From Romanomermis culicivorax (lineage: Eukaryota > Nematoda > Enoplea > Mermithida > Mermithidae): a stretch of 64,000 nucleotides of DNA. The DNA lies in the NCBI GenBank assembly GCA_963922205.1, contig CAWUHX010000302.1, positions 186,001-250,000 of the forward strand, in the 5' to 3' direction. Position numbers and translations under genes: made by a program. Each line of letters begins with the position of its first letter. Position 1 is the stretch's first letter. The notes under the pieces are model-generated. The model was not told the origin of the DNA and ran no database searches. It worked only from the letters and a program-made list of their open reading frames with translations. Positions 4,011-64,000 of this stretch are shown here, piece after piece.

Positions 4011-4039
4011 TTGATGACGTAATATCTCTATCGGGAAAT

Positions 4040-23010: not shown

Positions 23011-23013
23011 AAA

Positions 23014-32222: not shown

Positions 32223-32253
32223 CGTAAATGGATGATCTAACCAGGCAAAGCTT

Positions 32254-41100: not shown

Positions 41101-44100
41101 GTCCAGTTTAAAGAATTTTACTTCAGTTCCAATAATCCACCAAGAAAATATCTGTATGACTTTCTTCAAAACTAACATATTGATCAGTAACAATTTTCGA
41201 AATGTTGTTTGTGATTAGTTATAATAAGAATTCATTATTGGCTATTTATGACCTTACAATGGCGTAATAATGTGAAACACCTTTATTAGAATAACACAAT
41301 ATAACACACAATAATACAGTGGTGAGTGACATTTCGGTAGTGTACCTACTACCTTCTTTAGGCTATGACAATTAGAATAATTTTCAATAAATCCTTGCTT
41401 GCACTGGGGTTTGATCGCTGAAGTTTGAGATTGTGAGTTGAGAGATGTAACCACTGGGCCATCGGGGCCAATATTTGTCCAGTTAGATCTTCTATTTAAG
41501 CTGGTGGGCAATTGCATTCCTAAAGGAACCTCCTCAAGAAGGTTCTATTCCACATATGGCCTATTTCAATGCTTTTCGTTCCTACATTGCTGGAATGTGC
41601 TACTTCCATTTCCATTTTCTCCTCAATTTTTCTCTTGAAGGTGTTGCTTTCAAGGGCCAGTATACTGGTGTTATCAAAGCTTGGCCTACACCTACACTTT
41701 AGATAATGTCCTGCTACTCTACTACTTTTCTCATTCAGGTTCTTCAATCCATTTCTTTGTCCTAAGAATCTAGTCTTGAACTGAATTGTAGCACTATTTG
41801 GTGACTGTTCTTTTCTGTTGTTACCCTGAGAATAAATTTTCTACTTTCGTTTACCGAAATTGCCAACAATGGTTGTGTGGAACCATACATGTAATTGGGG
41901 GGGGGAAGTGCTATGGGACCCCCCCCCCAGAAATCGTCGACCATATGGCTAGCCATTGGGCGACCACCCCCCAGGATTTTCCAATCCTATGGCTAGCCAT
42001 ATGGTAGCCGTAGGAACCCCCATACTTTTAGTCGGAAAAATACTGAAAAATGTCATTTTTTCAAGAAAAATGTCATTTTTTCAAGCAAAATGTCAATTTT
42101 GAACAAAAAATTGTCAAAAACGTCAATTTTCTCGGCGCTTGGCGCCATAAGTACATTTTTTATCATTTTTTTAGACAAAAGTTATTATTTTTTCAACCGT
42201 TTTTCGGACTTTTTTCATGAAAAAATCGATTTTTTTTCCTTGAGAGACCCCTCCCCCCAAAATTTTGGGAATTACTGACCCCCGACCCAGAAAAAGTGCT
42301 CCAACTTCCCCCCCACCTCAGATCTCGGAGCTCCGTTACATGTATGTGTGGAACAGATATTCCATTGTAAGCTTGCCCTTAATGCTTAAAATCAAATTTT
42401 TTGTTCAATGTCAATATACTCATTTTTGCGAGATATATATAGTAGAGTACCCTGCTTTTAGTTCTTCCCAGAAAAATAGCATTCGAAAAAACCAACTTTA
42501 GTAGTCATGCACCCAAGCAATGTAGCAGTGAACTATTAAATTGCATATGTTGGTATTTTTCATAGAAAATTTTACCATGAATATTCTTCATACGAAAACT
42601 GCATAATGGATATATTCACTTTATGTCCCCAAGATTCTACCATTAAACGATGTTTCAACATTTTTGTTACTTGTTCATTGACGGTAGCCAGGACGCCGGA
42701 CAAAATAGTTGATGTGTTCATTTTTATCAAGTCTTTTGGACCATCGGAAACAAAAAGCAGTTCAACCAGACCCATTTCGGTGAAAAGGTCTTTCAATGCT
42801 CTAAAAACATAACAAGGATGCTAGATCACACTTACAAATATAGAGAAAGTGGTGGGGTAGACATAAATTTGATCGGTCAGCAATTAACTCTGTTTGGATA
42901 CTCCAGCCTCTTCACAATGAAATTTGTATAGATATGGTAATCACTCGAAAGTTTATGATCCAAGACCATACATATTCTTGGGCGATCCACCCCCAGAATT
43001 TTCATCTGTTTGGATTTTGGAAACGAGGGAGTAAAATTTTTCTCAAATAAATGTTGAAAACGAATATATTAAGCATAGAACAAACACGATATGATTCGGC
43101 GCTGTTTGAGGAATTGATCATATAAAGACTAGGAAATTTTCTAGCCTAAATGTTGAAAATTATCAAGAAAAAACTTAGATTTTGTTTTGAAACTGTAAGA
43201 GCACATGAAAAACATTTAATAGCGAACTTTTGGAGCATGTTGATCAATTTTGACTGATTCTGAGCACTTTTGAAAAAGAAAAATTGGTTCTTAGCCCTCC
43301 TCATATTTCTATGCTGTACATGTATACTCAGGACTCATTGAACATGATCAGATATAAAAAATTGAGTTTGATATGGCCCGGTATCAAAAAAGTTTTTCAT
43401 GTGATGCATGTCTGATCATGCAATTTTCCGAAATGACAGCAGTGCATAAATCGACAGAGAGTAAAGTCTGATACGGCGTCAATGCAATAACAACCAATTT
43501 TAAAAAAAGTAAATTCGGGATTTTAAATTATATTTTTATATATTTGCATGTGGCCTAATTTCTCTATCCTCAATCATCATTTTCGACCTATCCAATACGT
43601 TACTTTCTTATTTCTGAGAACAGCCGCATATGTAGATCATTGATTTATTATATGCAAATTTTAGTGTAAACATGGCACACGAGCAAAAATAATCACTGTA
43701 AAGTCACTCACTTCACCACTTGTACTGAATGCAATATTATTATATATATCGGAACTTACATCCCTGAAATTAAGCATGCTATAGCTCGTTCGATAGCCCA
43801 CGACAAATCAAATTACATTGATAACTTTTGTCCAAAAGTCCTGTTTACACTTGAATTTGCATAAATGAAAAAATATTAAAATTTTCACCTATATCCAATA
43901 CATCACGATGGATGGGAAAACGTGAATTTAAACGACTGTAGTAATACTGTGCAAGAAGTAATGAAATTTTTAACACTTGCTTGGATATATGTTAACAATG
44001 TTCGCTGTATTTATGAGGCAAGTTTATATGTGAAAAGATGTAATGATGAAACTGACTTGTGAAAAACATGATTTAACTCCATACCAAAAGACACATATCA

Positions 44101-47100
44101 TAGATGTAATATATTTTGTATTAAGTATTGATTGCATGTCACCATAGATTCAACAGCTAAGGAGAAGAAATTCAAAAAATTGCACCTACCATAATGTGTT
44201 GAACTAATGCTACACTAACCTTTTCAACTCGTGGGTCTTATTTACACTAAAATTTGCATAAATGTGGTAAAAAATGGAAACTTTACCTTCACACAATCTC
44301 AACAATTACAAAAGCATATTTAACAGCAACACATGTGCGGTATTAATATAGCATATCTCCACATGGATCAAAAATATAGTATGTTTTTATAAAATGCTTC
44401 CAAATGGTAAAGTGACACAAATCAGTACTGTCGTCAAAATCGTCTATAAGAGCTTTCGATGTGAAATTTTTCACTCGAAAAATTGTCATAGGTTAGGTCA
44501 GGTCAGTGTGTTCACAAATTTCCAGTCCTACATGATATATTGTCTATCAGCAAATCGTGAAAATCTGAAATACTACTTGCTTTCCACTATAATTATTTAG
44601 AAGCATTTCAAGAAAAACAGACTATAGATGGAAAAAAATTTTGAGTTTAAATTAGAATAGTTTCTTGGCTAAATCGATGTCGCTGATTACGAATATGATA
44701 TCAGAAATTTTATACGAGAAGGTCTTTACGCGTTTTTAATAATAAATATAAAAATAATTTCAAAGTTCAATCAAAATTTATTCTTGCACAGCTTAGACAC
44801 ATTTTTATCAGACTAAGGGGAACTGACGAGCTATTTCCGCACACATATTATTGAATGGTGTATCAATGCGCATATTCTTCCACCAGTACTCAGTAAGGTT
44901 TTGAACCAACTTTGCTTTGATATGGCCCCAGTGGTATTCAATGCGCTGCGTATTGGCGCCAGTTATCGGGTCGACGAAGTTCTTACTATGGTTCACGGTT
45001 TGGTGAACAAAGTTGAAACCAGGCCAGTTGGCTATGTTTCAGTACGCAGCCGATTCGTCTGAAACGATCGTTGTTCACGGAGGGACATGTGGAGACATGC
45101 TATACTATTACCCACATGTGCTAGATAGGTCATCTCAACCGCTGCAGTAATGCTCATGTGACTAATCAATGATCATTTCTGAAATACGCAGTTCTAAAGT
45201 AAGGTGATGTTTGAAAGATTAATTTATCTTTCCACAGACGAGGTACTTTTTGGATATTAACTGGTTGTATCAAATCCGACGAGTTACATGTTGGCGATTT
45301 TTACGGTTCCTTAGATCAAGTGTAGGCCAACTTTATATTGTTTTACGCATTTATGCAAATTTTAGTGTAAGGAACGCCTATGGGGAGAAACGGTTAGTGT
45401 AACATTACAATGGGCTGCCGGATGCCCTATAGCTTGTGGAATTCCAAAATTTGCAGCTACGAACGTTCTCTTGTAAGTAATTCTGTCTGCTTACTTCGAA
45501 TCAAAAATTTCTGGAGAATGTAGTCTCAGTTGCGTCCATTTTCCTTAACTATAGAAGTTATATCACTGAGCTGAATGTTTCGATGATGCAAATAAGTAGT
45601 TGAATGGACAATGAATGGAATATCAACTATAGTCTGTTTTTTATAAAATGCTTCCAAATAGAAAAATGACACGAATCAGTACTGTCGTCAAAATCGTTAA
45701 TATTTTTACCGTAGAATTTTTCACTGGAAAAGTCCTATACGATATACTGTTTGTCAGAAAATGGTGAAAATCTCAAATACTACTTGCTGTCCACTTTCAT
45801 TATTTAGAAGCATTTCTAGAAAAACATACTATAAGTTATATAATTCGTGAAATTTGGATCATACGTTCTTGTCACCTCAATCTTTGGACTCTTAAATTTG
45901 TCAAAAATTAACATAAAACGTTGTAGATAATATTTTTAAATAGATCTTGATCAGATCAATTTATTGGTCATGTTTTTACACAATCTCTGTAACTTTGAAT
46001 TTAACTGGAAATTTTTGACGAAATATTTTCAGTGCTGTGCATAGTCCTTATTCATGGTCACACGATTTTCACCTCAAATATTCGACATCTCGTCCGTAAG
46101 CGTAATATTCATTTTCAATTTGAAACGCAACGATAGGGCCGCCGTATGAAAATTGTTTGGCGGCCAATTTGGGCAATAGGACAGAAAAATAGTCCTGAAC
46201 GGCGGTTAAAAAGCCCGAGTAAGAAGACCGTACTTTCATTCGATGGTCGGACAATAGCCAAGCAGGCAAACCGCCAAATTCCCATTCAGCACATATGTAC
46301 GGCCCTGGGCGAACAATTACGTAAAGGCCGAGCTCTTGAGCTTGGTCTATGAACGATTCGACGTCCAATTCACCTGGAAAGTGCAATGAAGCTCATGGTG
46401 GGCGTTATAGAAAGAAGTTCAACTATAAGAATCCTATAGATGGGGACGCTATGGCGTTAGAACACAAGACATTAAGACGCACGGAGATTTAGGACGCAAG
46501 GACACTAGGAACCCACGAAAACCGTGAACGATAGGTATAAACTTTTTGGATTTATTGTCTTCTCATCGCATAGATTAAATGTTTCATCCTTGTAGTTGTG
46601 AAAATCTTCATAAAAAAACATAGACAAAAGATTGCTGGAAGAAACGAAAGATCAAAAGGAAGAAAACGTCAGCAAAAATAAAAGCGTTAAGACCAAGTGA
46701 AAATAGGTAGAAAAGCATTAGAACAATAAAGAAAACACGAAGAAAAGTGACAAAAAAAGCAACATAAAGAAAGCAGCAAGAAAGAAAGAAGGAAAAAATG
46801 ATAAAAGAACGAAGAGAAGAAAGGAGAATAGAAAAAAGAAAGATAAAGAAATAAAATCTAAAAAAAAACTAAGATGAAAAATAAGTAAGAATGAAAAAAA
46901 TCACAAGCGTGAAAATTGAATAGGAAATGGAGCATGCCGAACTGTATAAGAATTATATGGGTTATTCAGAACGGCTACTTGTTATGTATTGTTTCATGAA
47001 CAAAGAAGGGAAAAGTTGATGACAAGAGAGAAGGAAAGTGAAAAAAATGAAATGAAAAGAAAATTAAAGAAAGCAAAATCAAAAGATGAAAACGTACAAA

Positions 47101-50100
47101 CGTACGTAAACGAAAACAAAAGCAACACACAGAAACCGAAAGAAAAAAGGAATACATACAAAAAAATATAAGATATAGAAGCAAAATATGAAGAAACTGT
47201 TATCAAATTCTTGGTCGCTCATTGAGAATCGCCAAATCGGGAATTCGTTAACTTCAGAATCGCTCATTTGGGGATAGACCTTTTCAAAAAGCTGTTCAAA
47301 ATTATTATCTCTTGCAGACAGCAGTTGCCTTGAAACACCTACCATTTAATACCTGTTGATAGCAGCACTTAGAGTACGAAATTGATCTATCGTCTTATCA
47401 ATCAGTGTTCACAGAATTTCGTAGGGGTATTCGTACAATTTCCTTTCTTTTTTTGAATTTTTACGAAGTACCCTTTTTTCCTATAGCTGGAAAGGCAGGC
47501 TTTACGGGACCATATGGTGATATAAATGCCCAGCTCATATGAGGGATGCTCTTTATGAGCCCTTTGCTGCCTGGTTGAAGCCACATTCCGTTAAGTAGCA
47601 TCTGCCAAATGAGCAGGACTTGTTAAGCTAACGGCGTGTCCCCAATGCAGCGAAAGACAGAACAGCGAAACTCAAAATAGCGGGATACAAAACAGCGTTT
47701 ATCGAAAAAGCGAAGTCTCAAAACAGCGACTCTCATTACAGCGAAGTTTCAATGTAGTGACTCTCAAAACAGCGAAGTCACAAAACAGTGATTCTCAATA
47801 CAGCGAAATCTCAATATAGCAATTCTCAAAACAGCGATTGTCAAAAGAGTGAATCTCAATACAGCGAATCTCAATACAGCGAGTATAAATTTCTATGGGT
47901 TAGAGTAAATGCACACATCATTTTTATAATAAACATGCAAACTAGGTATATTAAAACCGTTTTTACACTGTTGAGAGTCTATTTTTTATTGCATTCGGCC
48001 ATCTAAATTTTACATGCTTTTGTGCTGCAATAGGTATGCACGAACAGACCATTCCAAAATCACAAAAAATATCTGTCAGAAAAACATCTTTGCAAAACTT
48101 TTGAAAGAAAACAAAAACAAAAAGTTATCATAAGGATCCCCAATTAAATTTGTATTGTGTGGAGCTTATTTGCAAAAAATAAAATTAATGAAATAAATAA
48201 AATAGAACGAAATAAGCAAATAAGATGAAATGAATAAAATAATTAAGGAGTAAAGGTAGAACAAAAAAAAGTAATGAAGAAAGGAAAATTAAAATAATGA
48301 AAAAAGGAAAATTAAAATAATGTAATAAAAAGTAGGTAAAAAATTGAACAAAAGTACAAAACCTGAAAATTAACAAGAAGTGGCTCAAAATAAGAAGAAT
48401 GTGAAAGAGAATAGTTCAATAAAGGAAAAAAAAACAAAAAACTTGCATGTAGACATGTTAGTAATAAAGAAACCAGAATTAAAATCTGTAATGTGAAAAC
48501 ACACGCTATATAGCCATAATGTCAGAAATCTGGCGAATGGTGCCAAAATGTGTGACAACCATCCACCAGATCGAAATGGACGATCAAACAGGATATGCGC
48601 CAAAACGTCTACACAGCCCGATCTTCATTTTTTCATTCTAAAAACAACTTTTTTTGAAAATTCGCTATTTTGAGAAAGACTTCGCTGTTTTGAGAATCAC
48701 TGTATTGAGACTTCACTGTATTGAGAATTCGCTGTTTTGAGAATTCGCTGTATTGAGACCTCGCTGTTTTGGGAATTGGCTCTATTGAGAACTCGCTATT
48801 TTGAGAATCGCTGTATTCAAACTTCGCTGTATTGAGAATAGCTGTTTTGAGACGTCGCTATATTGAGAATCGCTGTATTGAGGACTTCGTTGTTTTGAGA
48901 ATCGCTGTATTGAGACGTCGCTATATTGAGACTTGCTGTTTTGGGGCATCGCCGTTTTGAGACGTCGTTGTCTTGAGAATCACTGTATTGAGTCTCATTG
49001 TTTTGAGTTCCACTGTTGTGTGTTTCGCTGAATAGGGGTGAAACCCGAATACCTACCTCATGGATGGGGAATAGGCCCAGATTCTCATTCGCCGCACTAT
49101 CACCAAGATGCTAACTGGGCTGAATGGACCTAAGCAAGACGCGTTCCAAGCTTGCCTTCACAATTTGTTTACTCCCTAAGGTGTTGCCGTTATGATATGC
49201 GAAACATAGTCCGCCTAGTCAAAGTGCTTCTAAATCAAAAAGTTACTGAAATTAGCACTGTCATCAATATCATTTAAACAAAGGCGAAAAATTGTTGAAA
49301 TTTAGTTAAATATGGTCAAAAACTCTCAACTCTATGTGGCAGAAAATTTTAAGAATATAAACTAGAACTTAACTTATCAATTTGTTAAGATTTATAAGCA
49401 TTTGAAGAAAAGAAAACTATAGTATGATATACAGAATCATGTGGAAATTTCAGCTCTGTATAGTTCTGAGAAAAAATGGGAATATTAACATTAAGACGTG
49501 CAGAGGCATGTGGAAAAATCTTTCGTATAGTTTGGAGTGAAAATTTGGTAAGTATAATTATGTGAATCTTTTTTTGTAAAATGCTTCTAAATCAAAAATG
49601 GCGAAAAAAAATTGTCTTCAAAATCGCTATCACCTCAATTCAACTGTACAATTTTTACCCAATAATTTTTCATGGTTATTTAAATTAACTTACAATTTTC
49701 TGTTTCTACAAGATGTGTGGCTCAGTAGGAAATTATAAAGTATGCAGCAGGACTTGTTTTCAGTTTTCGTTTTTCAAAGACTAGATCTATAGTTTAATAA
49801 GCAGAAATCGTGTACTGGTCAAATCTCTGACTGGTCAAATTTGAAAGTGTGATATTCTGGAGAATTATGAGGCGAGCCGTAAAGAAATTGCTTCCACAGC
49901 CACGTGAAAATTATTGATGATTCAGATCCTCCAGAATGATATGCATGATCACGTAGAATAGTCTGATCAGTTATATTCTTCAGTATGATATTCAGAATCA
50001 TGTGGGAAGTAGTGAACTGTCAGATATTGAAAGCCTTGACCGGTCCACTTCGAAAGTATCATATTATGCGAAACCATGTGGAGAATTCTAATCATGCAGA

Positions 50101-51779
50101 TTCTCTAGAATGGTATCCAGGACCATTTGCGAAGCTCTGACAGGTCAAATTCTTTGTGTTAAACAATATTATGCAAAATTATGACGAAAGCTTTTTACTT
50201 TTCGAATGTATGATACGCAGAATCATCTGGAGGGTTGTGACAAGCTTGCTTCTACTACGTTAAACGCAGAACCATGTGAAAAACACTGATTATTCAAATT
50301 CTGCAGTATGATATGCATAATTATTTAGAAAACGTTCTGAATAGCCTAGATTCTAGCATGCGAAATTTCAAATCATGTGCATAGCTCTCATTAAGAAGAT
50401 TCAGTATGATTCTCAAAATTATGTAAAATAATTCTACAACAGATTTTCCAGAAAAAATATTTGAAAAATCGATCCACTCTTACAGTAAAACATGTGTAGA
50501 ATATGCTAATAGAATACAATGCATCAAAGAGTGAATCATAGTTGTAGTACATTTTTCACGGTAATAAATGATTTATGAACGAATTTTTTGATTTTTGATA
50601 CATTGCTCGGAGTTAATTATTGCTCAGTGTTGGGTAAACCTATGGGCCATTTCGTGAACTACATTTTGTGAATGCCGCTCATGTGGAACTTCTGTATTTG
50701 TATGTAGTTTTACTTCGGCCGAGTTGAAGGACTCAAGTTAACAATAACAGTCTCTGAGTACAGTGATTGTAGACTTGTTCAGTTGAGCAGAACTCATTTT
50801 CATCATGGAGTCACTGATAACTAAGTAACATAAGTAAGTGTGTGACACTCATCTTTAGCGCGGAAGTATACAGGGTGACCGAAAAATACGTCTTCCCAAA
50901 GTTATGTAGTATCTCAGTCATTCAAGCTAAGGTTTTCGGGTTTTGATCTACATTTCCTTTGATCTTTCATCTTGAAATTTCTTACTTAATCTAAACCACT
51001 GTGCTTCACCCATGCATGGATAAACAACTGGTTTATCATTTTTTGCGAGCAATCAACTGCGCTAAACTGTCAATCTGTAATCTTTGGTTTTGATTTCATG
51101 AGCGAAGTACAGCTTATAGTTGACAGTTCTGTACATTTTTCGAAATTTCCTCTATTAAAAAGTATAGGAAGAGTGGAATACTATTTGGAAATCAGATCTT
51201 ATGCAAATATTTTCAATCAGTATGTTCGATCCGGATATGGCTCTTCATCATGGAATGAATGATCGTGAAATGAATGATCATGAAATGAATGATCATGAAA
51301 TGAAAGATCATGATCTGACGCTGAGCTGTCAGTCAGTCTGTGAATTTCGAACACAAATGAAACTTTATCATATGATGTTGAAATAATTGTGCTATCGATC
51401 GCAGAAGGACCGAACATTAGATAGGCTCTAATTACTGTATGGTAGCAGTTTTTGACGGCCATGAATGAATCTGGAGTTCAAACTTTAATTAATTTCTAGA
51501 CGTCAGCACACCTGTAAAGTCGAACTTCCCGCGTTCTTTTTCATGAAGATTCCACGCTACGTAAGTTTCTACAGTATTCAGACCGCAATCTTTCAATTTT
51601 TCTAATCGATCTTTCCAATAGGCTCTCGGAATTCGGAAATAGTGCATCGAACCGCTCATAATCCGGAATTGCGTTCCATTCAAATAAAATCCGGTCTTTT
51701 CCGCCACCAGGCTGCTTCCACGTAAGCCAGAATAAAACGATACAAAAATTATGCAAATGAGCATACGACTGATTAACAT
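35104..51779 (-). CDS. Beta-galactosidase, glycoside hydrolase family 35 (GLB1L2/GLB1L3-like)
   Basis: Hydrolyses terminal beta-galactose from glycans; animal GLB1-like members are secreted or lysosomal. Exons: 51,779-51,512; 46,373-46,073; 42,800-42,671; 39,582-39,344; 38,204-37,903; 36,044-35,536; 35,229-35,113. All splice phases agree, and the joined product is about 622 residues, close to the family's usual 630-650. It opens with a signal peptide, then [18 protein letters not shown], the acid/base glutamate in FQIENEY, the nucleophile in [26 protein letters not shown] and [13 protein letters not shown], and the C-terminal beta domains up to [25 protein letters not shown] and [11 protein letters not shown] place it nearer GLB1L2/L3 than lysosomal GLB1. 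The exon-3 donor was chosen by homology from three in-phase candidates. Exons 2 and 3 recur at 63 and 59.8 kb. Confidence 0.9.
35113..35229 (-). CDS. Beta-galactosidase exon 7
   Basis: A 117-nt phase-0 exon with [16 protein letters not shown], the conserved carbohydrate-binding strand near the C-terminus of GH35 enzymes. After RKGNNL the frame reads VR-stop, but gtaaga at that point is also a good donor. The family usually continues with a hydrophobic strand (I/V-V-L-x-E), so a final exon may be missing; if not, the stop is at 35,104-35,106. Confidence 0.85.
35536..36044 (-). CDS. Beta-galactosidase exon 6
   Basis: 509 nt, phase 1 to phase 0. Carries the first and second C-terminal beta domains: [26 protein letters not shown] and [13 protein letters not shown] are typical GH35 strands. 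The largest exon of the gene. Confidence 0.9.
36540..37115. repeat. Satellite of 14-bp perfect palindromes
   Basis: About 30 variants of TATGTTATAACATA, each its own reverse complement, separated by 1-10 bp such as 'gac' or 'ggc', plus diverged units. It lies in intron 5 of the beta-galactosidase gene. Non-coding. Confidence 0.85.
37903..38204 (-). CDS. Beta-galactosidase exon 5
   Basis: 302 nt, phase 2 to phase 1. Opens with [16 protein letters not shown], the end of the catalytic barrel, followed by [15 protein letters not shown] and a long variable linker. Confidence 0.9.
38390..38719 (-). other. Isolated 109-codon intronic open frame
   Basis: Open minus-strand frame inside intron 4 of the beta-galactosidase. 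No recognised domain and no splice context; long for DNA of this composition, so it may be a worn mobile-element fragment or chance. Confidence 0.2.
39344..39582 (-). CDS. Beta-galactosidase exon 4 (nucleophile)
   Basis: 239 nt, phase 0 to phase 2. Contains [17 protein letters not shown], whose Glu is the catalytic nucleophile in GH35, and [17 protein letters not shown] lining the active site. Confidence 0.92.
41212..41469 (-). mobile_element. tRNA-derived SINE, copy 3
   Basis: Minus strand head GGCCCCGATGGCCCAGTGG (a very good A box), then gcgatcaaacccc in the B-box position. Same body and 'gaattcattattggc' tail as the other copies. Lies in intron 3 of the beta-galactosidase. Confidence 0.7.
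41880..42330. repeat. G- and C-homopolymer-rich intronic segment
   Basis: Runs of 8-9 G or C alternate with 'gaaaaatgtcattttttcaag' words. The copy at 58,980-59,400 differs mostly in the length of these runs, as expected from slippage or base-calling error. Confidence 0.6.
42671..42800 (-). CDS. Beta-galactosidase exon 3
   Basis: 130 nt, phase 2 to phase 0: [31 protein letters not shown]. Donors also exist after HRLM and after WGHK in the same phase; the NEQ donor (caa|gtaaca) gives the spacing to the nucleophile strand seen in GLB1L2-like proteins. Confidence 0.8.
44808..45074 (-). pseudogene. Merlin-type (IS1016/ISXO2-like DDE) transposase relic
   Basis: Translation runs TIVSDES..AY, a stop, then [39 protein letters not shown] and IKAKLV. 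The phrase VNHSxxFVDPxTGAxTQxIE..W is the hallmark of the ISXO2-like transposase domain of Merlin elements; the second Asp and the final Glu of the triad are visible. A TGA inside the AY|NIA segment, missing upstream sequence and absence of ends show it is dead. It lies in intron 2 of the beta-galactosidase. A bacterial contaminant is unlikely because it is embedded in AT-rich intron sequence and duplicated with it. Confidence 0.75.
46073..46373 (-). CDS. Beta-galactosidase exon 2 (acid/base)
   Basis: 301 nt, phase 1 to phase 2: [27 protein letters not shown], then [13 protein letters not shown] with the acid/base Glu after Asn. Splices ttgag|gtgaaa to exon 3, giving YLRALKDLF. Confidence 0.92.
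46560..47170. repeat. A/AG-rich low-complexity stretch
   Basis: Long A-rich tracts with gaaaga words in intron 1 of the beta-galactosidase; similar tracts recur at 48,170-48,440. Short lysine-rich frames here are not genes. Confidence 0.6.
47640..49038. mobile_element. Fold-back element with tandem-repeat arms
   Basis: The left end reads CCCCAATGCAGCGAAA and the right end, inverted, CCCCTATTCAGCGAAA. Inside each end are arrays of 'acagcga ctcaa' units, about 47,660-47,885 in one orientation and 48,660-49,025 in the other (cgctgtattgaga). The 0.8-kb centre is AT-rich without a transposase. No clear target duplication. This layout is that of a fold-back (FB-type) DNA transposon. It lies in intron 1 of the beta-galactosidase. 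Confidence 0.65.
49420..50430. repeat. Degenerate minisatellite, about 70-bp unit
   Basis: Repeated phrase 'tatgatatgcagaatcatgtggaaa ... tctgactggtcaaattc' in many worn copies within intron 1. Non-coding. Confidence 0.55.
51512..51779 (-). CDS. Beta-galactosidase exon 1 (signal peptide and start of barrel)
   Basis: ATG at 51,779 opens a 268-nt exon ending acag|gtgtgc in phase 1. The first 20-22 residues ([18 protein letters not shown]) form a signal peptide; [20 protein letters not shown] and [14 protein letters not shown] are hallmark GH35 strands. A second in-frame Met at codon 6 would also leave a signal peptide. Confidence 0.9.
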
Positions 51780-52263
51780 ATTTTTTGTTTCAACGAAATT
51801 TTCGATATGAAAATAAACCGCTAATATTATTTGATTTATGATTTAAATACATATTGATATAAATTGTCGAAGCATTCCACGGTTAATCAATTTTTGAAGG
51901 ATAATCTTTCAAGAACTAGATTCTATTCCAAGTGTTATTACGTCATACAAACTTGCTTTGGCAAAACATGTGGTTCTAGCGAGATAAAGAAAAAGCATAA
52001 TCCTGCAGTTCGAAGGTAAATACGTCGTTTCTTGCAGTTCCATTTCATTCAAGAATATCATTAAATATTCATGCCTGTGTCCGGACAAAGAACTGATTGG
52101 AAGTAAACATTCTTGCAAGCAAAACCTCAACATTCAGCAAATTGAGAAAAATTCAAAGAAGTGGACTGCTAAGTTTGGCTAAATTTTCGAGCTTTTCTGC
52201 CATACATTAAGTTTTTTCTCTAGTTTCCCGGACTACTTTCATAAAACTCACAATTAAAAACCA
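51780..52263. other. Sequence upstream of beta-galactosidase, no clear promoter motif
   Basis: AT-rich, without a convincing TATA box in the first 100 bp before the ATG. Confidence 0.35.
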
Positions 52264-53152
52264 AGTAGTTTTAGGGGACCGTACAAGGGGTACACAAAAG
52301 ATACCCATGTACACAACATAAACATCAAAGTTTGCCGCCTTAACTGTGTGGGGCGATGCAGGGGGTGTAGAAACTGCGCCCAAAGTTTCAACATGTGAAA
52401 TTCGACTTCCATGAGTATGCCCGAAGCTCCAACCGATAAAATTCGACTTCCATGTAGAAAGAACGCCAAAAGCTTCAATGGATAAAATTCGACTTCCATC
52501 TACAAAGTACAATCAAAACTTTAACGTGTAAATTCAATTTCCATGTAGAAAGTATACTGGAAGCTTCAACAGGTAAAATTCGGCCTCAATGTTCCTCGTT
52601 CGACTCGATGTTGAAATCGATGATGCAATGTCTGCTAAAAATTTTTCAAAAAGTGACTTAGGAGTCATTGAATCTAACAGCTTTACTCGTTTTTTATACA
52701 AAACCCATGGAAAATTGTGTCCTGAAAGAGTGACAAACGTGTCATGGAAACAATGCTTAAGCAAAGGGAATCATTGAAAAATGTGTCTCAAATACATAAA
52801 AAATGTTTTCCAAACAAGATCTTTTCTGGAAATTTTGTAAAAAATTGAGTAAAACTGTTAGATCAATAGATTCTGTGACCCTCAGGCGTTTTTTTAAATT
52901 TTTTTGAGAGACATTGCATCATCAATTTTAACATCTGATTCGGTCGAGGAACATTGAGGTCAAATTTTACCCACTGAAGCTTCGGGCATACTTTCCAGAT
53001 GGAAGTTTAATTTTACACGTTGAAGCTTCGGGCGTCCTTTCTGCATGGAACCCTGTATCGCCCCACACAGTTAAGTTTGCAAACCTTGATGTATACATTT
53101 TGTACAAAGGTATCTTTTGTGTACCCCTGTATGGGCCCGTATAACTAGGAAA
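52264..53152. mobile_element. Fold-back element with 46-bp units in its arms
   Basis: Left arm: gggaccgtacaaggggtac, acaaaagatacc, ttaactgtgtggggcgatgc, then about five units ending 'aattcgacttccat'. The right arm (52,925-53,152) is the same order inverted, with two to three units. The spacer carries the 'gcttaagcaaagggaatcat' phrase seen at 4.2 kb. Related arms lie at 3.69-4.01 kb. Confidence 0.65.
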
Positions 53153-53998
53153 CCACTGCATATAAAATTTAGTTATCAGTTAAAACAGGAGGTCCAAATT
53201 GAAAATTCTCAATTTCAGTCTTTGTGAAAAATTTATATCCGCAGGACCGTAGTGATCTACTATAGCCCATTTACTTCGAGATGACATACCACTTGATAAG
53301 CGTATAAGAAGGTTCAATTTGGCGTGAAATATTCACTTGATGAAAAACTTAACACTGTAGAAAAAAGGGCCAAAATCGTGGAACAACGTCATGCTTTCCT
53401 GCTTGATTTGGGCTGCGTCGACACCTGAATGCTCCTCGAGTCGAGATCCACTGAAGATATACACTTTATTGAAGCGAATTTTGAGTTGTACTATCTGCAG
53501 CTTATGGACGAGAAAATTGTCATCGATTACAGTAATAACCTTTCTAATTTTTCGAGTCGGATTTATATTCATGAGATCGCTGCATCTGTCATTTTAAAAT
53601 TAATAGTATACTTTTACCGTAAACTTCAACCTAAAAGCTTTGCCTGATTTCACAAAAATATATAGCCTCTAAATGTTTTGCTTCAGGGTGCTTAATAAAT
53701 TAAAAAATTTTAAAATAAAAAAATTACCTTGATTCAAAACCACTTGTTTATGCCATTTTTATGGACATTTTTGGCAGGTTCCAGTAAAACGTACAATTTT
53801 GAAGAAAGAATGACGAAATTGATCACACAATTTTTGAGAGAAGCAATAGTTTATATGAATGATTACAGCTGGTGACATGCTCTAAATATATATATGATAA
53901 TCTAAAGTAAGAAATTAGACCAAACAGGTCATGTGACGAACAAACTCGAACATTCTAGCTAAACGACTCAGACACCACAGGCTTCTCAGACAGATCAG
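53153..53998. other. Spacer, nothing recognised
   Basis: AT-rich with overlapping short frames on both strands at 53,330-53,650; no domain or splice context. Confidence 0.4.
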
Positions 53999-54223
53999 GG
54001 GCCGGTTTCATCAAAGAGACTTAAGCTCCAGCTGACTCAGACACACAAAACATATTGGGAAAGTTAAGCTGCAGCTGAGCTGCACCTTAAAGACGGTGGT
54101 ATAACATACAGAGTTAAGCTACAGCTCAGCTGCAGCTTAACGGGATGACATGACCTACGGAGTTAAGCTACAGCTTCAGCTGCAACTCAGCTGGAGCTTA
54201 AGTCTCTTTGTTGAAACCGGCCC
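53999..54223. mobile_element. 225-bp MITE with long inverted ends
   Basis: The left end GGGCCGGTTTCATCAAAGAG continuing ACTTAAGCTCCAGCTGA is matched, with one difference in the first 20 bases, by the inverted right end. The centre is built of 'ttaagctgcagctgagctg' words. No transposase; a target duplication could not be settled. Confidence 0.75.
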
Positions 54224-55953
54224 TTTTTCAGACCATCCTGTATAGATAGGTTATTTGTCTTGTAAGATCTACATTTCTTATACTAGCCAATCAAAGGCGT
54301 TGCCCCGCCTCCTATGTTTTTATATACTGGTACCCTTCAAAATGGATTTCTGAGGTCATAGCTTTCTTTCGGAGAGCGAACTTAGTTCTGTGTGGAGATT
54401 ATTATCGGCGAAAATATTTTTCACGGGAGAATCCGATGGACATATTGGTTTTTAATAAAAATTTTCATTTTTAGAGATTTTTCAGAAAAAATGTCAATGT
54501 CAAAAATGCTTGTTCACCCAAAATGCAGTAATGTTGGATTTGATCGGCTGTTCCATTGTCGTTCTCTACCTACTCAGGAGTAGGACAAAGAAACGAAAAT
54601 TTCCATTATTTTCCGAAATAACTGCATTTTATGTGAAAGACAAGGTTTTTTGACGTTTATCTGAAAAAACGTGAAAAATAAAATTTTTTTAATTAGAAAT
54701 CAATATCTCCGTTGCGTGAACTCCCCCTCTGTAACCCTTATAAAAACCAAATGTGCCCTCCGTCAGCAAGCCCTGACTTCAAAAATCCACTTTGAACTGT
54801 TTCGGTAAGCATAGTAGGTAAGTAACGTCTTTGATTGGCTAGTTTCAGAAATTTTCATCCTTCGATGCACCGCCCATCTTGATTTCTTTCAAGATGATAT
54901 CTTTTTTAATCTTGATTTTTTAAGATAATATCTCGATTTCTTTCTTGATTATATTGAAAAAATGCGGTGGATTTATCGCGGGGTAATAGTAGTCTTAGAA
55001 ATTCACATCTGGTCCCCAAAGTCAATTTTTCATCCGTTCCCGAAACTTTAAACTTCTGAACCCCGCACTCCCCTTCTCTCACCTCCCTTTCTCTTCCATC
55101 TTCATTCCTTTTCCACCTTTATCGCATTTTGTTTTCCCCATGGTTGGGGGTGCAGGATGCCACACTTTTAGCTAAACGGGTACTATATTTTCTTTCTGTT
55201 ACAGTAAATTAACTTAATCATTATTACAATTCATCAATAGTTACTTGTTTATTTTTTCTGCGTTTCGTCTTTTTTTCTTTGTATTTGCATAAACCATGTC
55301 TTGTTATTTTTGTCCACTTTGGAGTGAAAAGAGCAACAGTTTTGTATGTCACTGCGTAGATTTGCTGCATTATTGATCTGCATGTGTCACTACTTATCTT
55401 GATTCTAGTTTACATCACGTATTTTTCTGTCATCAAATTTGATACTGTTATAGTAACACTTCAGAAAGTTTAAAAAACGATCATAAATATTAGACATAAA
55501 TCTTTTTCATCTTTGAACATTCTTGTTCAAGGGAGGAAAATGTGTCAAAAACATGCCGCCTAATTTTACTATTGTAGTCCGTTTAAGGAAATGGCGTCAC
55601 AGGCTGGTTTTGATTCGAGTTACTCCGTCCATCTTTTAGGTGGGGCAATGCCTAGTTTTGCATATTAACCTCTGAGCAAGAGAGAACAAATGAAACTCGA
55701 TGGTGTTTGAAAACCCTAGTCAAAACTGCGAGGTGTACTTTTGAAATTTGGCATAAAGCTCAATGACAATTTCTTCGCTAAAAACGAACATTTCCGAAAC
55801 TCAATCTAAACCGCCGACTTTATGAAATAGTGTTGTGAATACAAAGTCAAAAATGGATCAGCATCCTTTTAGTTATAATCAGCTAAAATTTCTCGGCTAC
55901 ATTTCTATTGCCATATGACAAAATTTATGTGTCCGGTGCAACAGGAAAATAAA
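54224..55953. other. Spacer, no gene seen
   Basis: Ordinary AT-rich DNA with a pyrimidine-rich patch near 55,055-55,140. Confidence 0.4.
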
Positions 55954-56022
55954 GCAGGGAGAGCGGCTCGAACCCTCGACCTTCTGCATACAAGTCAGAC
56001 ACGTTACCAATGCTAAGCCACT
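55954..56022 (-). mobile_element. tRNA-Thr(TGT)-like SINE head, copy 1
   Basis: Minus strand: tggcttagcattggtaac (A box region), cttgtat in the anticodon-loop position (anticodon TGT) and a perfect B box GGGTTCGAGCC. The 3' side ends tccctgc but the 5' side cannot pair with it, so there is no acceptor stem and no functional tRNA. Confidence 0.55.
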
Positions 56023-56029
56023 TGATAGT

Positions 56030-56690
56030 TTGGAAAATGTTGTAGTGGTGGTCCCTTCAGCCGGGTGGTCCTTGGAGGGTTATCAATGTCGCATGCTCAA
56101 GTCTGCATGTTCAGTGTAATAGACATATAATCTTGGTGAAGGCCTCGAACTATAAACCCTCTGCATACAAGGTAGATGCTCTACCAACAGTTAAGTGAGC
56201 CTGATGGATGGTTCGGAAATTGCAGTTGTAGTAGCGGTAGTGAGTGTGCAGCAGGCCACATGATGAGCAGCTGGACACACCATCGCAACACCACGCCCTT
56301 CGAGGAAGAAGGGTCCTGGAGGTCACCAGTCATGTTGATGGTTCGGAAATTGTAATTGTAATGGTATCATCAACAGAGCTGGTTTTGTAATGAACTGCTG
56401 GATGCGTCACTCCAACACCATTTCCACCCTTGAGGAAGATGAAAGACGCTGTATCATTGCTAATGTCATATGCCTAAATCTGGAACAACAGAAAAATAAA
56501 ATTTTATCAATATCTAAAGATGAATAGGCAGTGTAGACGGCTTGGAAATTTTGGTCGAGTGGTGGTGTGAATGGAGCAGACCACGTGAAGAACAGATAGA
56601 TGCACTACTACAGCCACCCCTTTCGAAGAAGGAGCCCTGGATAGCCACCAATGTTGGAAGCCCAAATCCATGTGCCCAGAGCAACAGCTT
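56030..56690. repeat. Repeated module of about 150-180 bp
   Basis: Four related modules share 'gtttggaaattgtagt', 'gcagaccac..gaagagcag' and 'cttcgaggaagaagggtcctgga'. They follow the tRNA-like heads and may be the bodies of the same SINE family, or a local minisatellite. Confidence 0.5.
56135..56202 (-). mobile_element. tRNA-Thr(TGT)-like SINE head, copy 2
   Basis: Minus strand: ctgttggtagagcatctacc, then cttgtatgcagagggtttat and agttcgaggcc. Same anticodon position (TGT) as copy 1, with a mutated acceptor stem. Confidence 0.5.
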
Positions 56691-57289
56691 CAGAGGGAAA
56701 GTACCTTTTGGAAAGCACACAAAAAATGCAGTTCTCAGTAAACTTTCAGCTTTCTTGAGTACAGCTTGAGGATAGCTTGAGGATAGAATAGCTTACATTG
56801 ACAATTTATTTGTATTTTCTTCTTCCAGGCTGATCTTGTCCACATTAAAACGAGACTTTTCTATTATACCTACTTTTGGATTGATTAGTTATTAGAGCTG
56901 AAATTTAGGTACTGATAAGTGTTCATTGGTTTTCCTACATGTCCCTGTTTCCAGTCTTTTTTGTCTCTCGCAACTTGAACATCCTGGTGTTGCGTGGGTC
57001 AGTAGGTTTATCGTCTACTGGCAGCCCACACATACAATATATTGAAGGTATCTGTTACACTGGCCGATTAGCATAATTTATTCGTAAACAATGACAGTAA
57101 ATAAAAGAGGGAGGTAAGGCGGAATGGGACGAATGAATAGTTGGCCAAAGGCCCAACTATTTATACACGAAAAACGACGCACATATAAATTTACATTGGT
57201 CTGGTGGATCAGAAATAATACACAAAAATGTGGGCGAAAAACACGTGCCAAAAAACTAAAGAAAAAGTAAACTCTTATTATTTTAGATT

Positions 57290-57392
57290 TCAATTGTGAC
57301 AATTCATATGGTTCAGGAACACTTGCAAGACACCTTCGCTTTCATCCCAATGTGTGAATGTGTCGTCCACATATCGGAACCATAGGCTTGGT
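57290..57392 (-). pseudogene. Penelope-like reverse transcriptase fragment cut by the scaffold gap
   Basis: Reading leftward from the gap: PSLWFRYVDDTFTHWD, then VLQVFLNHMN and a stop. WxRYVDDtF followed by a FLxHLN-like helix is the catalytic palm motif of Penelope-like elements; non-LTR elements usually have YADD or FADD in this place. Only about 33 codons lie on this side of the gap, ending in TGA, so this is a fragment. Confidence 0.65.
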
Positions 57393-57492
57393 NNNNNNNN
57401 NNNNNNNNNNNNNNNNNNNNNNNNNNNNNNNNNNNNNNNNNNNNNNNNNNNNNNNNNNNNNNNNNNNNNNNNNNNNNNNNNNNNNNNNNNNN
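57393..57492. other. Scaffold gap of exactly 100 N
   Basis: A run of 100 N, the conventional size for a gap of unknown length between joined contigs. Confidence 0.98.
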
Positions 57493-57517
57493 AAGCAGTG
57501 GTATCAACGCAGAGTAC
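57493..57517 (+). other. SMART template-switch/PCR adapter left in the assembly
   Basis: The first 25 bases after the gap (beginning aagcagtggtatcaacgc and ending agagtac) match the SMART cDNA/PCR primer used in template-switching libraries. It is synthetic, abuts the gap, and is followed at once by genomic sequence matching 40,432 onwards. It marks the raw end of a contig. Confidence 0.95.
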
Positions 57518-58299
57518 TTGATTACTGCAACAGCTACTGAACTAATCTATTGGCTCAGGGACAGATAGAGTAGTCGAAAACCAACAAAAAAACTAGTTCT
57601 TCATTGGTCCCCTATTGTGGTGGGAATTTGAAGTTTTCAACTTTATATAGAGGGTATTTTATGCGATGTAGTGGCCAAAATTCAACATACACTGATAAAT
57701 CAGAAACTAAAGCATCTATCTATTTGGTGTGGGATCTAAATAACTACTGAAACACTAGTAGCCACAGCTGAAGCATTAGAAATGCAAGCTGCAACACTGA
57801 ACCATTGAAAAATCGAGTTTGATACAACTGAAACATAATGGACTACTGGATTGAAACTACTACTGAAAAAACAGTATATATTCTGCTTTTTTCGAATAAT
57901 ATTTTTTGGAAGGAGTAGGAAGCAGGTGCTATATTCACGTTCAACAAAGTTTACTGAATTACTCTAGAGGAAAAACTTCTTGAGTGCAAAATTTTATATT
58001 GCAAAATTGGGTGAGAATAATGGTCGTTTATTGTTTGTTTTCATTTCAGAAACGATAGAATATATGTTAAAATGCTGGATAGCTAGACAAACAAAATTTA
58101 TGGAAGAAAGCTTCAGTTTTTGTTGGAAGGGAAATGAAAAGACTGAGCATTCAAATTCGAAATTTATCTTTTCAGGCTTACCTATGTCCAGTTTAAAGAA
58201 TTTTACTTCAAGTTCCAATAATCCACCAAGAAATATCTGTATGACTTTCTTCAAAACTAACATATTGATCAGTAACAATTTTCGAAATGTTGTTTGCGA

Positions 58300-58558
58300 T
58301 TAGTTATAATAAGAATTCATTATTGGCTATTTATGACCTTACAATGGCATAATAATGTGAAACACCTTTTTTTAGAATAACACAATATGACACACAATAA
58401 TACAGTGGTGAGTGACATTTCGGTAGTGTACCTACTACCTTCTTTAGGCTATGACAATTAGAATAATTTTCAATAAATCCTTGCTTGCACTGGGGTTTGA
58501 TCGCTGAAGTTTGAGATTGTGAGTTGAGAGGTGTAACCACTGGGCCATCGTGGCCAAT
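58300..58558 (-). mobile_element. tRNA-derived SINE, copy 4 (duplicate of copy 3)
   Basis: Same insertion as at 41,212-41,469, carried by the duplicated segment; differs by a longer T run and a few bases. Confidence 0.7.
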
Positions 58559-59749
58559 ATTTGTCCAGTTAGATCTTCTATTTAAGCTGGTGGACAATTG
58601 CATTCCTTAAGGAACCTCCTCAAGAAGGTTCTATTCCACATGTGGCCGATTTCAATGCTTTTCGTTCCTACATTGCTGGAACGTGCTACTTCCATTTCCA
58701 TTTGCTCCTCAATTTTTCTCTTGAAGGTGTTGCTTTCAAGGGCCAGTCATACTGGTGTTATCAAAGCTTGGCCTACACCTACACTTTAGATAATGTTCTG
58801 CTACTCTACTACTTTCTCATTCAGGTTCTTCAATCCATTTCTTTGTCCTAAGACTCAAAGTCTTGAACTGAATTGTAGCACTATTTGGTGACTGTTCCTT
58901 TCTGTGTTACCCTGAGAATAAATTTTCTGCTTTCGTTTACCAAAATTGCCAACAATGGTTGTGTGGAACCATACATGTAATTGGGGGGGGGGGGAAGTGC
59001 TATGGGAACCCCCCCAGAATCGTCGACCATATGGCTAGCCATTGGGCGACCACCCCCCCCCCCACCCCAGGATTTTCCAATCCTATGGCTAGCCATATGG
59101 TAGCCGTAGGAACCCCCATACTTTTAGTTGGAAAAATACTGAAAAATGTCATTTTTTCAAGAAAAATGTCAATTTTTGAACAAAAAATTGTCAAAAAACG
59201 TCAATTTTCTCGGCGCTTTCGCGCCATAAGTACATTTTTTATCATTTTTAAGACAAAAGTTACTACTTTTTCAACAGTTTTTCGGACTTTTTTCATTGAA
59301 AAAATCGAATTTTTTTTCCTTCAGAGACCCCTCCCCCCCCAAATTTTGGGAATTACTGACCCCCGACCCAGAAAAAGTGCTCCAACTTCCCCCCCCCCAG
59401 ACCTCGGAGCTCCGTTACATGTATGCGTGGAACAGATATTCCATTGTAAGCTTGCCCCTAATGCTTAAAATCAAATTTTTTGTTCAATGTCAATATACTC
59501 ATTTTTGCGAGATATATATAGTAAAGTACCCTGCTTTTAGTTCTTCCCAGAAAAATAGCATTCGAAAAAACCAACTTTAGTAGTCATGCACCCAAGCGAT
59601 GTAGCAGTGAACTATTAAATTGCATATGTTGGTATTTTTCATAGAAAATTTTACCATGAATATTCTTCATTCGAAAACTGCATAATGGATATATTCACTT
59701 TATGTCCCCAAGATTCTACCATTAAACGATGTTTCAACATTTTTGTTAC

Positions 59750-59879
59750 TTGTTCATTGACGGTAGCCAGGACGCCAGGCAAAATAGTTGATGTGTTCAT
59801 TTTTATCAAGTCTTTTGGACCATCGGAAACGAAAAGCAGTTCAACCAGACCCATTTCGGTGAAAAGGTCTTTCAATGCT
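59750..59879 (-). CDS. Second copy of beta-galactosidase exon 3
   Basis: Same frame and splice sites as 42,671-42,800, with one changed residue inside the exon (Ser to Pro in TILPGVLATVN). Pro also fits the family, so both versions are plausible alleles. Confidence 0.75.
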
Positions 59880-61897
59880 CTAAAAACATAACAAGGATGC
59901 TAGATCACACTTACAAATATAGAGAACGTGGTGGGGTAGACATAAATTTGATCGGTCAGCAATTAACTCTGTTTGGATACTCCAGTTTCTTCACAGTGAA
60001 ATTTGTATAGACATGGTAAACACTCGAAAGTTTATGATCCAAGACCATACATATTCTTGGGCGATCCACCCCCAGAATTTTCATCTGTTTGGATTTTGGA
60101 AACGAGGGAGTAAAATTTTTCTCAAATAAATGTTGAAAACAAATATATTAAGCATAGAATAAACACGATATAATTCGGCGCTGTTTGAGGAATTGATCAT
60201 ATAAAGACTAGGAAATTTTCTAGCCTAAATGTTGAAAATTATCAAGAAAAAACTTAGATTTTTTTTGAAACTGTAAGAGCACATGGAAAAAACATTTAAT
60301 AGCGAACTTTTGAAGCATTTTGATCAATTTTGACTGATTCTGAGCACTTTTGAAAAAGAAAAATTGGTTTTTAGCCCTCCTCATATTTCTATGCTGTACA
60401 TGTATACTCAGGACTCATTGTACATGATTAGATATAAGAAATTGAGTTTGATATGGCCCGGTATCAAAAAAGTTTTTCAAGTGATGCATGTCTGATCATG
60501 CAATTTTCCGAAATGAAAGTAGTGCATAAATCGACAGAGTGTAAAGTCTGATACGGCGTCAATGCAATAACAAGCAATTTTTAAAAAGTAAATTCGGGAT
60601 TTTAAATTATATTTTTGTATATTTGCATGTGGCCTAATTTCTCTATCCTCAATCAACATTTTCGACCTATCCAATACGTTACTTTCTTATTTCTGAGAAC
60701 AGCCGCATATGTAGAGTTATTATTATTTTTTTATTATATGCAAATTTTAGTGTAAACATGGCACACGAGCAAAAATAATCACTGTAAAGTCACTCACTTC
60801 ACCACTTGTACTAAATGCAATATTATTATATATATCGGAACTTACATCCCTGAAATTAAGCATGCTATAGCTCGTTCGATAGCCCACGACAAATCAAATT
60901 ACATTGATAACTTTTGTCCAAAAGTCCTGTTTACACTTGAATTTGCATAAATGAAAACATATTAAAATTTTCACTTATATCCAATACATCACGAAGGATG
61001 GGAAAACGTGAATTTAAACGACTGTAGTAATACTGTGCAAGAAGTAATGAAATTTTTAACACTTGCTTGGATATATGTTAACAATGTTCGCTGTATTTAT
61101 GAAGCAAGTTTATATGTGAAAAGATGTAATGGTGAAACTGACTTGTGAAAAACATGATTTAACTCCATACCAAAAGACACATATCATAGATGTAATATAT
61201 TTTGTATTAAGTATTGATTGCATGTCACCATAGATTCAACAGCTAAGGAGAAGAAATTCAAAAAATTGCACCTACCATAATGTGTTGAACTAATGCTACA
61301 CTAACCTTTTCAACTCGTGGGTCTTATTTGCACTAAAATTTGCATAAATGTGGTAAAAAATGGAAACTTTACCTTCACACAATCTCAACAATTACAAAAG
61401 CATATTTAACAGCAACACATGTGCGGTATTAGTATAGAATATCTCCACATGGATCAAAAATATAGTATGTTTTTATAAAATGCTTCCAAATGGTAAAGTG
61501 ACACAAATCAGTACTGTCGTCAAAATCGTCAAAATCGTCTATAAGAGCTTTCGATGTGAAATTTTTCACTCGAAAAATTGTCAAAGGTTATGTCAGTGTG
61601 TTCACAAATTTCCAGTCCTACATGGTATATTGTCTATCAGCAAATCGTGAAAATCTGAAATACTACTTGCTTTCCACTATAATTATTTAGAAGCATTTCA
61701 AGAAAAACAGACTATAGATTGAAAAACATTTTGAGTTTAAATTAGAATAGTTTCATGGCTAAATCGATGTCGCTGATTACGAATATGATATCAGAAATTT
61801 TATACGAGAAGGTATTTACGCGTTTTTAATAATAAATATAAAAATAATTTCAAAGTTCAATCAAAATTTATTCTTGCACAGCTTAGACACATTTTTA

Positions 61898-62164
61898 TCA
61901 GACTAAGGGGAACTGACGAGCTATTTCCGCACACATATTATTGAATGGCGTATCAATGTGCATATTCTTCCACCAGTGCTCAGCAAGGTTTTCAACCAAC
62001 TTTGCTTTGATATGGCCCCAGTGGTATTCAATGCGCTGCGTATTGGCGCCAGTTATCGGGTCGACGAAGTTCTTACTATGGTTCACGGTTTGGTGAACAA
62101 AGTTGAAACCAGGCCAGTTGGCTATGTTTCAGTACGCAGCCCATTCGTCTGAAACGATCGTTGT
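61898..62164 (-). pseudogene. Second copy of the Merlin-type transposase relic
   Basis: Keeps TIVSDEWAAY, the form expected in the family, where the first copy has SDESAAY; shares the same in-frame TGA. Three or four other residues differ (LVENLAEHWW, KNMHID). Confidence 0.7.
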
Positions 62165-63162
62165 TCACGGAGGGACATGTGGAGACATGCTATACTATTA
62201 CCCACATGTGCTAGATAGGTCATCTCAACCGCTGCAGTAATGCTCATGTGACTAATCAATGATCATTTCTGAAATACGCAGTTCTAAAGTAAGGTGAAGT
62301 TTGAAAGATTAATTTATCTTTCCACAGACGAGGTACTTTTTGGATATTAACTGGTTGTATCAAATCCGACGAGTTACATGTTGGCGCCTTTTACGGTTCC
62401 TTAGATCAAGTGTAGGCCAACTTTATATTGTTTTACGCATTTATGCAAACTTTGATGTAATGAACTCCCATGGGGAGAAACGGTTAGTGCAACATTACAA
62501 TGGGCTGCCGGATGCCCTATAGCTTGTGGAATTCCAAAATTTGCAGCTACGAACGTTCTCTTGTAAGTAATTCTGTCTGCTTACTTCGAATCAAAAATTT
62601 CTGGAGAATGTAGTCTCAGTTGCGTCCATTTTCCTTAACTATAGAAGTTATATCACTGAGCTGAATGTTTCGATGATGCAAATAAGTAGTTGAATGGACA
62701 ATGAATGGAATATCAACTATAGTCTGTTTTTTATAAAATGCTTCCAAATAGAAAAATGACACGAATCAGTACTGTCGTCAAAATCGTTAATATTTTTACC
62801 GTAGAATTTTTCACTGGAAAAGTCCTATACGATATACTGTTTGTCAGAAAATGGTGAAAATCTCAAATACTACTTGCTGTCCACTTTCATTATTTAGAAG
62901 CATTTCTAGAAAAACATACTATAAGTTATATAATTCGTGAAATTTGGATCATACGTTCTTGTCACCTCAATCTTTGGACTCTTAAATTTGTCAAAAATTA
63001 ACATAAAACGTTGTAGATAATATTTTTAAATAGATCTTGATCAGATCAATTTATTGGTCATGTTTTTACACAATCTCTGTAACTTTGAATTTAACTGGAA
63101 ATTTTTGACGAAATATTTTCAGTGCTGTGCATAGTCCTTATTCATGGTCACACGATTTTCAC

Positions 63163-63463
63163 CTCAAATATTCGACATCTCGTCCGTAAGCGTAATATTC
63201 ATTTTCAATTTGAAACGCAACGATAGGGCCGCCGTATGAAAATTGTTTGGCGGCCAATTTGGGCAATAGGACAGAAAAATAGTCCTGAACGGCGGTTAAA
63301 AAGCCCGAGTAAGAAGACCGTACTTTCATTCGATGGTCGGACAATAGCCAAGCAGGCAAACCGCCAAATTCCCATTCAGCACATATGTACGGCCCTGGGC
63401 GAACAATTACGTAAAGGCCGAGCTCTTGAGCTTGGTCTATGAACGATTCGACGTCCAATTCAC
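63163..63463 (-). CDS. Second copy of beta-galactosidase exon 2
   Basis: Identical in sequence, as far as I can see, to 46,073-46,373, including flanking intron. It lies 5' of exon 1 in the present scaffold order, where it could not contribute to the gene. Confidence 0.8.
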
Positions 63464-64000
63464 CTGGAAAGTGCAATGAAGCTCATGGTGGGCGTTATAG
63501 AAAGAAGTTCAACTATAAGAATCCTATAGATGGGGACGCTATGGCGTTAGAACACAAGACATTAAGACGCACGGAGATTTAGGACGCAAGGACACTAGGA
63601 ACCCACGAAAACCGTGAACGATAGGTATAAACTTTTTGGATTTATTGTCTTCTCATCGCATAGATTAAATGTTTCATCCTTGTAGTTGTGAAAATCTTCA
63701 TAAAAAAACATAGACAAAAGATTGCTGGAAGAAACGAAAGATCAAAAGGAAGAAAACGTCAGCAAAAATAAAAGCGTTAAGACCAAGTGAAAATAGGTAG
63801 AAAAGCATTAGAACAATAAAGAAAACACGAAGAAAAGTGACAAAAAAAGCAACATAAAGAAAGCAGCAAGAAAGAAAGAAGGAAAAAATGATAAAAGAAC
63901 GAAGAGAAGAAAGGAGAATAGAAAAAAGAAAGATAAAGAAATAAAATCTAAAAAAAAACTAAGATGAAAAATAAGTAAGAATGAAAAAAATCACAAGCGT

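Follow-up and report, generated by a model that had tools for sequence, protein, structure and literature searches.

The stretch of Romanomermis culicivorax DNA analysed here, referred to as the window (64,000 nt, positions 186001-250000 of scaffold C302), carries on its minus strand a predicted GH35 beta-galactosidase gene, hereafter gene A. To the right of the first exon of this gene stand exactly 100 consecutive N, with no other N run in the window, and directly after them come a laboratory sequence and then a second copy of DNA already present on the left (Table 1). We refer to the sequences on either side of the N run as the left and right contigs, and to the two copies as A and B. A 180-amino-acid join of two exons matches PF01301 at 4e-67, above the curated cut-off, which predicts membership of GH35, and in the PDB it matches GH35 beta-galactosidases (best 3.8e-54); seven of the nine Pfam queries had no match. 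Gene A comprises four PF01301 matches between 51.7 and 38.1 kb of the window and, presumably, the PF21317 domain that lies beyond them. With both domains, and with matches to beta-galactosidases of known structure, the predicted gene resembles known GH35 beta-galactosidase genes, from which it departs in nothing unusual.

Table 1. Features at and around the join; positions are those of the window unless preceded by the scaffold name.
Feature	Position	Strand	Basis
Copy A: right-hand end of the left contig; recurs in full at the start of the right contig	40432..57392	+	BLASTN
Scaffolding gap, 100 N, size unknown	57393..57492	.	N-run scan
Adapter, 26 nt (25-nt oligo + ligation T), best read as a PacBio ultra-low-input PCR adapter that stayed on the read with which the right contig starts	57493..57518	+	Sequence match, alignment; same 26-mer 562 times genome-wide
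Copy B, start of the right contig; repeat continues past the window to the equivalent of 74811	57519..64000	+	BLASTN, global alignment
Tract of A differing by ~2.3% from B (probable haplotype difference)	40432..45400	+	114 mismatches
Tract of A identical to B, 7,385 bp (probably the same haplotype in both contigs)	45401..52785	+	0 mismatches, 0 gaps
Predicted GH35 gene A exon, PF01301 positions 2-62	51507..51689 (C302:237507-237689)	-	PF01301 genome search
Predicted GH35 gene A, PF01301 54-186 match; open stretch 46072-46392, remainder over stops	45997..46395	-	PF01301 search
Predicted GH35 gene A, PF01301 positions 210-285, outside the repeat	39349..39576	-	PF01301 search
Predicted GH35 gene A, PF01301 positions 285-318	38099..38197	-	PF01301 search
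First all-beta domain PF21317, presumably gene A	35482..36018	-	Pfam
Second copy of the PF01301 54-186 match, probably spurious	63087..63485	-	PF01301 search, A/B alignment
Other repeated exon of B, outside the window	C302:254597-254779		PF01301 search

The laboratory sequence, AAGCAGTGGTATCAACGCAGAGTACT, occurs once in the window, and the 23-nt reverse complement of the primer is absent from it. It is 26 nt long, with genomic alignment restarting at 57519, and its first 25 nt have the letters of the SMART oligo; the base after GTAC is read as the T of a ligation overhang. The earlier note had described the 25 bases after the gap as the SMART primer, which is right as to the letters and to their place against the 100-N gap, and one base short. 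It had also described what follows as a near-copy of 40,432-46,910 and as a duplicated 6.5-kb segment. The near-copy is borne out: 57519-64000 and 40432-46910 are 97.0% identical over 6,523 columns by BLASTN, and their global alignment has 6,319 matches, 119 mismatches and 33 indel events. The repeat is present but its supposed length is not, 6.5 kb being simply where the window cuts it. In the scaffold sequence up to 30 kb past the window end, the scaffold equivalent of 57519-74811 was found to match 40432-57392, that is, up to the final base before the gap, and a duplication limited to 6.5 kb is rejected. BLASTN (query 30001-57392; target the scaffold from 57519 on) returned the repeat in two pieces, 40432-55314 at 98.6% and 55316-57392 at 99.2%. 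The whole of 40432-57392 has its counterpart in the 17,293 genomic bases that open the right contig, which extends past the point equivalent to the end of the left contig. One boundary of the overlap is exactly the base at which genomic sequence starts in the right contig, the other exactly the base with which the left contig ends, and the repeat thereby reaches both contig ends at the gap. The geometry is that of a dovetail overlap, the left contig finishing on the sequence with which the right one begins.

Over the whole overlap, a second alignment gave 121 mismatches and 39 gap events. The divergence, 2.3% followed by 7,385 identical bp, appears allele-like. Between 45401 and 57392 there are 7 mismatches in total; after the identical tract, on to 57392, these 7 are accompanied by 5 indels, one of them of 338 bp, and with differences of this kind in the near-identical part more than two haplotypes, or a PCR or assembly error, have to be reckoned with. 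The 338-bp segment is present in B (equivalent of 72410) and absent from A at 55314, in near-identical surroundings, and may be either a haplotype indel or a deletion made in PCR or assembly. The sharp step from 2.3% to zero is expected if the two contigs share one haplotype over part of the overlap and differ in haplotype over the rest; it does not look like a pair of paralogues, though gene conversion could mimic it. When two segments of the overlap were searched for in the genome (359,112,060 bases, 595 contigs), each had two full copies, all on C302: 50400-51900 at 100% and 100% (all five candidates scored) and 42350-43350 at 100% and 98% (among the best 40 of 441 candidates). The remaining matches listed for both segments are short and 70-81% identical. 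Taken alone, the dovetail geometry would fit equally well a true tandem duplication with its junction inside the gap: a recent event that copied at least 17 kb, the 5' half of the GH35 gene with it, and that was later homogenised in part by gene conversion. The junction itself is indeed not in the sequence; against such an event, however, both contigs end inside the copied segment, one of them at an adapter, and the abruptness of the step is more simply accounted for by reads of a shared haplotype.

The other GH35 genes bear on the same question. The PF01301 search of the genome, in which all 20 candidates were scored, gave 19 exon matches, which we grouped into genes by position and strand. 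The B fragment consists of the first two exons of gene A only and is truncated by the start of the right contig. Another three GH35 genes span C302:295260-335720 in both orientations, at 295-311 kb (minus strand, four PF01301 matches), 318-327 kb (plus strand, four) and 331-336 kb (plus strand, three); one more, with two PF01301 matches, lies at C393:195355-199831. That diverged GH35 genes are found on C302 speaks for a locus that does duplicate, and so lends something to a tandem event; yet in the two exons the other genes are 40-67% identical to A in protein (the three on C302 by 59-67% in the first exon and 61-62% in the second, the C393 gene by 52% and 40%), whereas no residue differs between A and B in either shared exon (100% identity). 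We therefore regard a real tandem duplication as very improbable, and would give even less credit to its fuller version, in which a duplication of at least 17 kb has just added a near-identical GH35 gene to an expanding cluster and gene conversion has erased the differences over 7.4 kb. Among themselves, the other three C302 genes have protein identities of 74-80% (first exon) and 53-63% (second exon), and all the genes other than A are 32-80% identical to one another. The other C302 GH35 genes could be suspected of being false copies of one another, which is rejected by these protein values (53-80%) and by their exons, which align to one another in DNA pieces of 73-86% identity; nor is the whole family an artefact, given diverged genes on both C302 and C393. 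As judged from sequence, GH35 is thus predicted to be truly multi-copy, with four genes on C302 and one on C393, the B fragment being spurious and no separate gene, and by inference there would be a local GH35 cluster in this mosquito-parasitic nematode. Advice in the earlier note to discount any GH35 copy claim made from this scaffold holds for the identical two-exon fragment across the gap, but goes too far for the four diverged genes.

The sequence next to the gap is not peculiar to this locus. Screening the assembly for the primer, as had been proposed, returned 256 + 307 = 563 occurrences of its 23-mer in 359 Mb and none of a reversed-pattern control, so that the recurrence is not due to chance. 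The 26-mer, which is the 23-mer followed by ACT, occurs 255 + 307 = 562 times; 562 of the 563 copies thus run on with ACT. We examined 38 distinct sites, these being all the sites within the loci fetched, which were taken from the first places listed of the 563 genome-wide. At each of the 38 the adapter lies at the edge of a 100-N gap or at a scaffold start and continues with ACT, so that the 26 nt ending in GTACT stand at read (contig) ends; the earlier claim that the contig ends at an adapter agrees with this, the right contig here starting with one. In 20 small loci with 25 adapters, 9 adapters stand immediately against the gap; on the outer side of the other 16 lies CACACTCTATCAGATT or ACACACTCTATCAGATT. 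The full string of barcode, T and adapter has 60 + 82 = 142 copies in the genome, the adapter in each being preceded by the full 17 nt of ACACACTCTATCAGAT + T, where ACACACTCTATCAGAT is the PacBio barcode BC1019 (16 nt; given in Table 4 of PMC7962047). A second-round barcoded SMRTbell adapter is thus found outside the PCR adapter in these 142 copies, although BC1019 is missing at the window's own adapter site. This nested order agrees with the two rounds of ligation in a sand fly paper, which describes adapter ligation, PCR and a second ligation (PMC11344823).

The primer could instead mark an RNA or cDNA contaminant, a template-switch or oligo-dT product, that was built into the assembly. The shared SMART letters would suit such an origin, and in the SMART oligo-dT primer these letters precede a long run of T. 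Both the 23-mer and the 26-mer occur in RNA-sequencing papers as well, and two papers that pair these letters with 'ultra-low input' deal with RNA and with chromatin plus transcriptome. The letters alone are therefore indecisive, and it is the single T, the outer barcode and the genomic sequence inside that decide. Against an RNA origin, all but one of the 563 copies continue with ACT; none of the 38 sites has a run of eight T in the 15 nt that follow the 23-mer, and one of the 38 has GGG within 10 nt; in 142 copies the adapter is flanked on its outer side by BC1019; and what follows the adapter at this locus is intron-containing genomic DNA, not template-switch Gs or poly-T and then spliced sequence. 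We consider an RNA or cDNA contaminant to be barely credible. The reading that fits best is a genomic PCR adapter from a PacBio ultra-low-input library, with no RNA template switching involved, so that of the "SMART template-switch primer" of the earlier note the laboratory origin stands and the template switching does not. The same 26-mer has been removed with lima from HiFi reads as adapter contamination (PMC12613986, in a passage that does not call the library ultra-low input). Our case is like that carry-over in its identical 26 letters, with the trailing T, and has the outer barcode at many sites; it is unlike it in that the adapter has been kept 562 times in a finished assembly.

The assembly analysed corresponds closely, in size, scaffold number, gap style and library type, to the published version 2 of the R. 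culicivorax genome (359.1 Mb, 595 scaffolds, 716 gaps and 70.6 kb of N; PMC10879605), and from these statistics we infer that it is the same. The 70.6 kb of N over 716 gaps come to slightly less than 100 N per gap. RagTag pads gaps that are unknown or negative with 100 N. The 595 scaffolds, with their 716 gaps, would have about 2,622 contig ends, of which some 21% would carry the adapter if all 562 copies sit at contig ends as the 38 examined do. By the account in PMC10879605, the HiFi data were ultra-low input from up to 10 individuals, NextDenovo contigs were made from them, purge_dups was run once, and RagTag scaffolded the contigs against a hifiasm assembly; the authors report a k-mer spectrum with "some remaining artefactual duplications", and the main text of that paper uses the word adapter once, for Nanopore reads, with lima and pbmarkdup unmentioned there. 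Such a recipe could produce a misjoined overlap of this kind. We hold it to be almost certain that the duplication is false, an unmerged contig overlap of about 17 kb whose two copies were placed next to each other in scaffolding, the join being marked by a library adapter that had not been trimmed. HiFi reads from the PCR-amplified, ultra-low-input library of several worms would have been assembled without removal of the PCR adapter, and contigs whose outermost read kept it would end in adapter. Two contigs of one locus, of partly different haplotypes, would have about 17 kb in common at their ends; the overlap would have escaped haplotig purging, and reference-guided scaffolding would then have set the contigs one after the other across a gap of fixed length, 100 N. 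The beta-galactosidase fragment on the right would accordingly be an allele, or a copy from the same locus, of the complete gene on the left. A mis-assembly from two redundant, overlapping contigs is well supported by the dovetail geometry, the haplotype-like mosaic, the adapters at gap edges or scaffold starts at all 38 sites and the published recipe; it upholds the proposal that an alternative haplotype or redundant contig was placed beside its twin. The join resembles the false haplotype duplications, or unmerged overlaps, that purge_dups targets, in its near-identical copies across a gap, dovetail arrangement, haplotype-like divergence and pooled source, and differs from them in that the right contig also has an untrimmed adapter marking a read end.

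At 10 other adapter-bearing gaps we compared the first ~2 kb on the right of the gap with ~17.9 kb on its left, a range that overlaps of more than ~18 kb would escape. A collinear overlap across the gap was found at two: at C1:2229801 the flanking contigs overlap at 99.8% identity, and at C2:939690 in pieces of 94-98%; both are probably the same artefact. No collinear overlap within 17.9 kb was seen at the other eight, of which those on C8 and C9 have one short match each (86-88%), that on C5 inverted repeats, and five nothing. The idea that every adapter-bearing gap hides an overlap is rejected, and the presence of an adapter beside a gap is not enough to infer a duplication. The duplication is an ordinary assembly error that changes nothing in the biology, and its value is a practical one, for users of the assembly: about 560 places carry the library adapter, and some gaps join overlapping copies and so create false exon or gene duplications. 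Here, an annotation of the minus strand would meet, from right to left, the exon pair of B, then that of A, then the remainder of the gene. The artefact would disappear, and the genuine GH35 cluster become countable, if adapters were trimmed and overlapping contig ends merged or purged ahead of scaffolding.

Several other features of the window lie apart from the join. A degenerate hexamer array at 1448-2080 (AAGCTG, AAGCCG, AAAGCC) is open on both strands; the nematode telomere repeat is TTAGGC, and a telomeric nature of the array at ~1.4-2.1 kb is rejected on its main units. At 26155-26866, 178 copies of AAGG, 98% matching, form an array with an open frame of GRKE repeats, or LPSF on the opposite strand, which implies no gene. 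A palindromic repeat of 500 bp at 31996-32495, 77% self-complementary, is perhaps a small inverted-repeat transposable element; related copies lie at 41172-41508 in A and 58257-58593 in B. Lastly, 2386-9798 and 19199-25009 form an older collinear duplication, with pieces of 77-85% identity, which, unlike the artefact, lies within one contig with no N between its halves.
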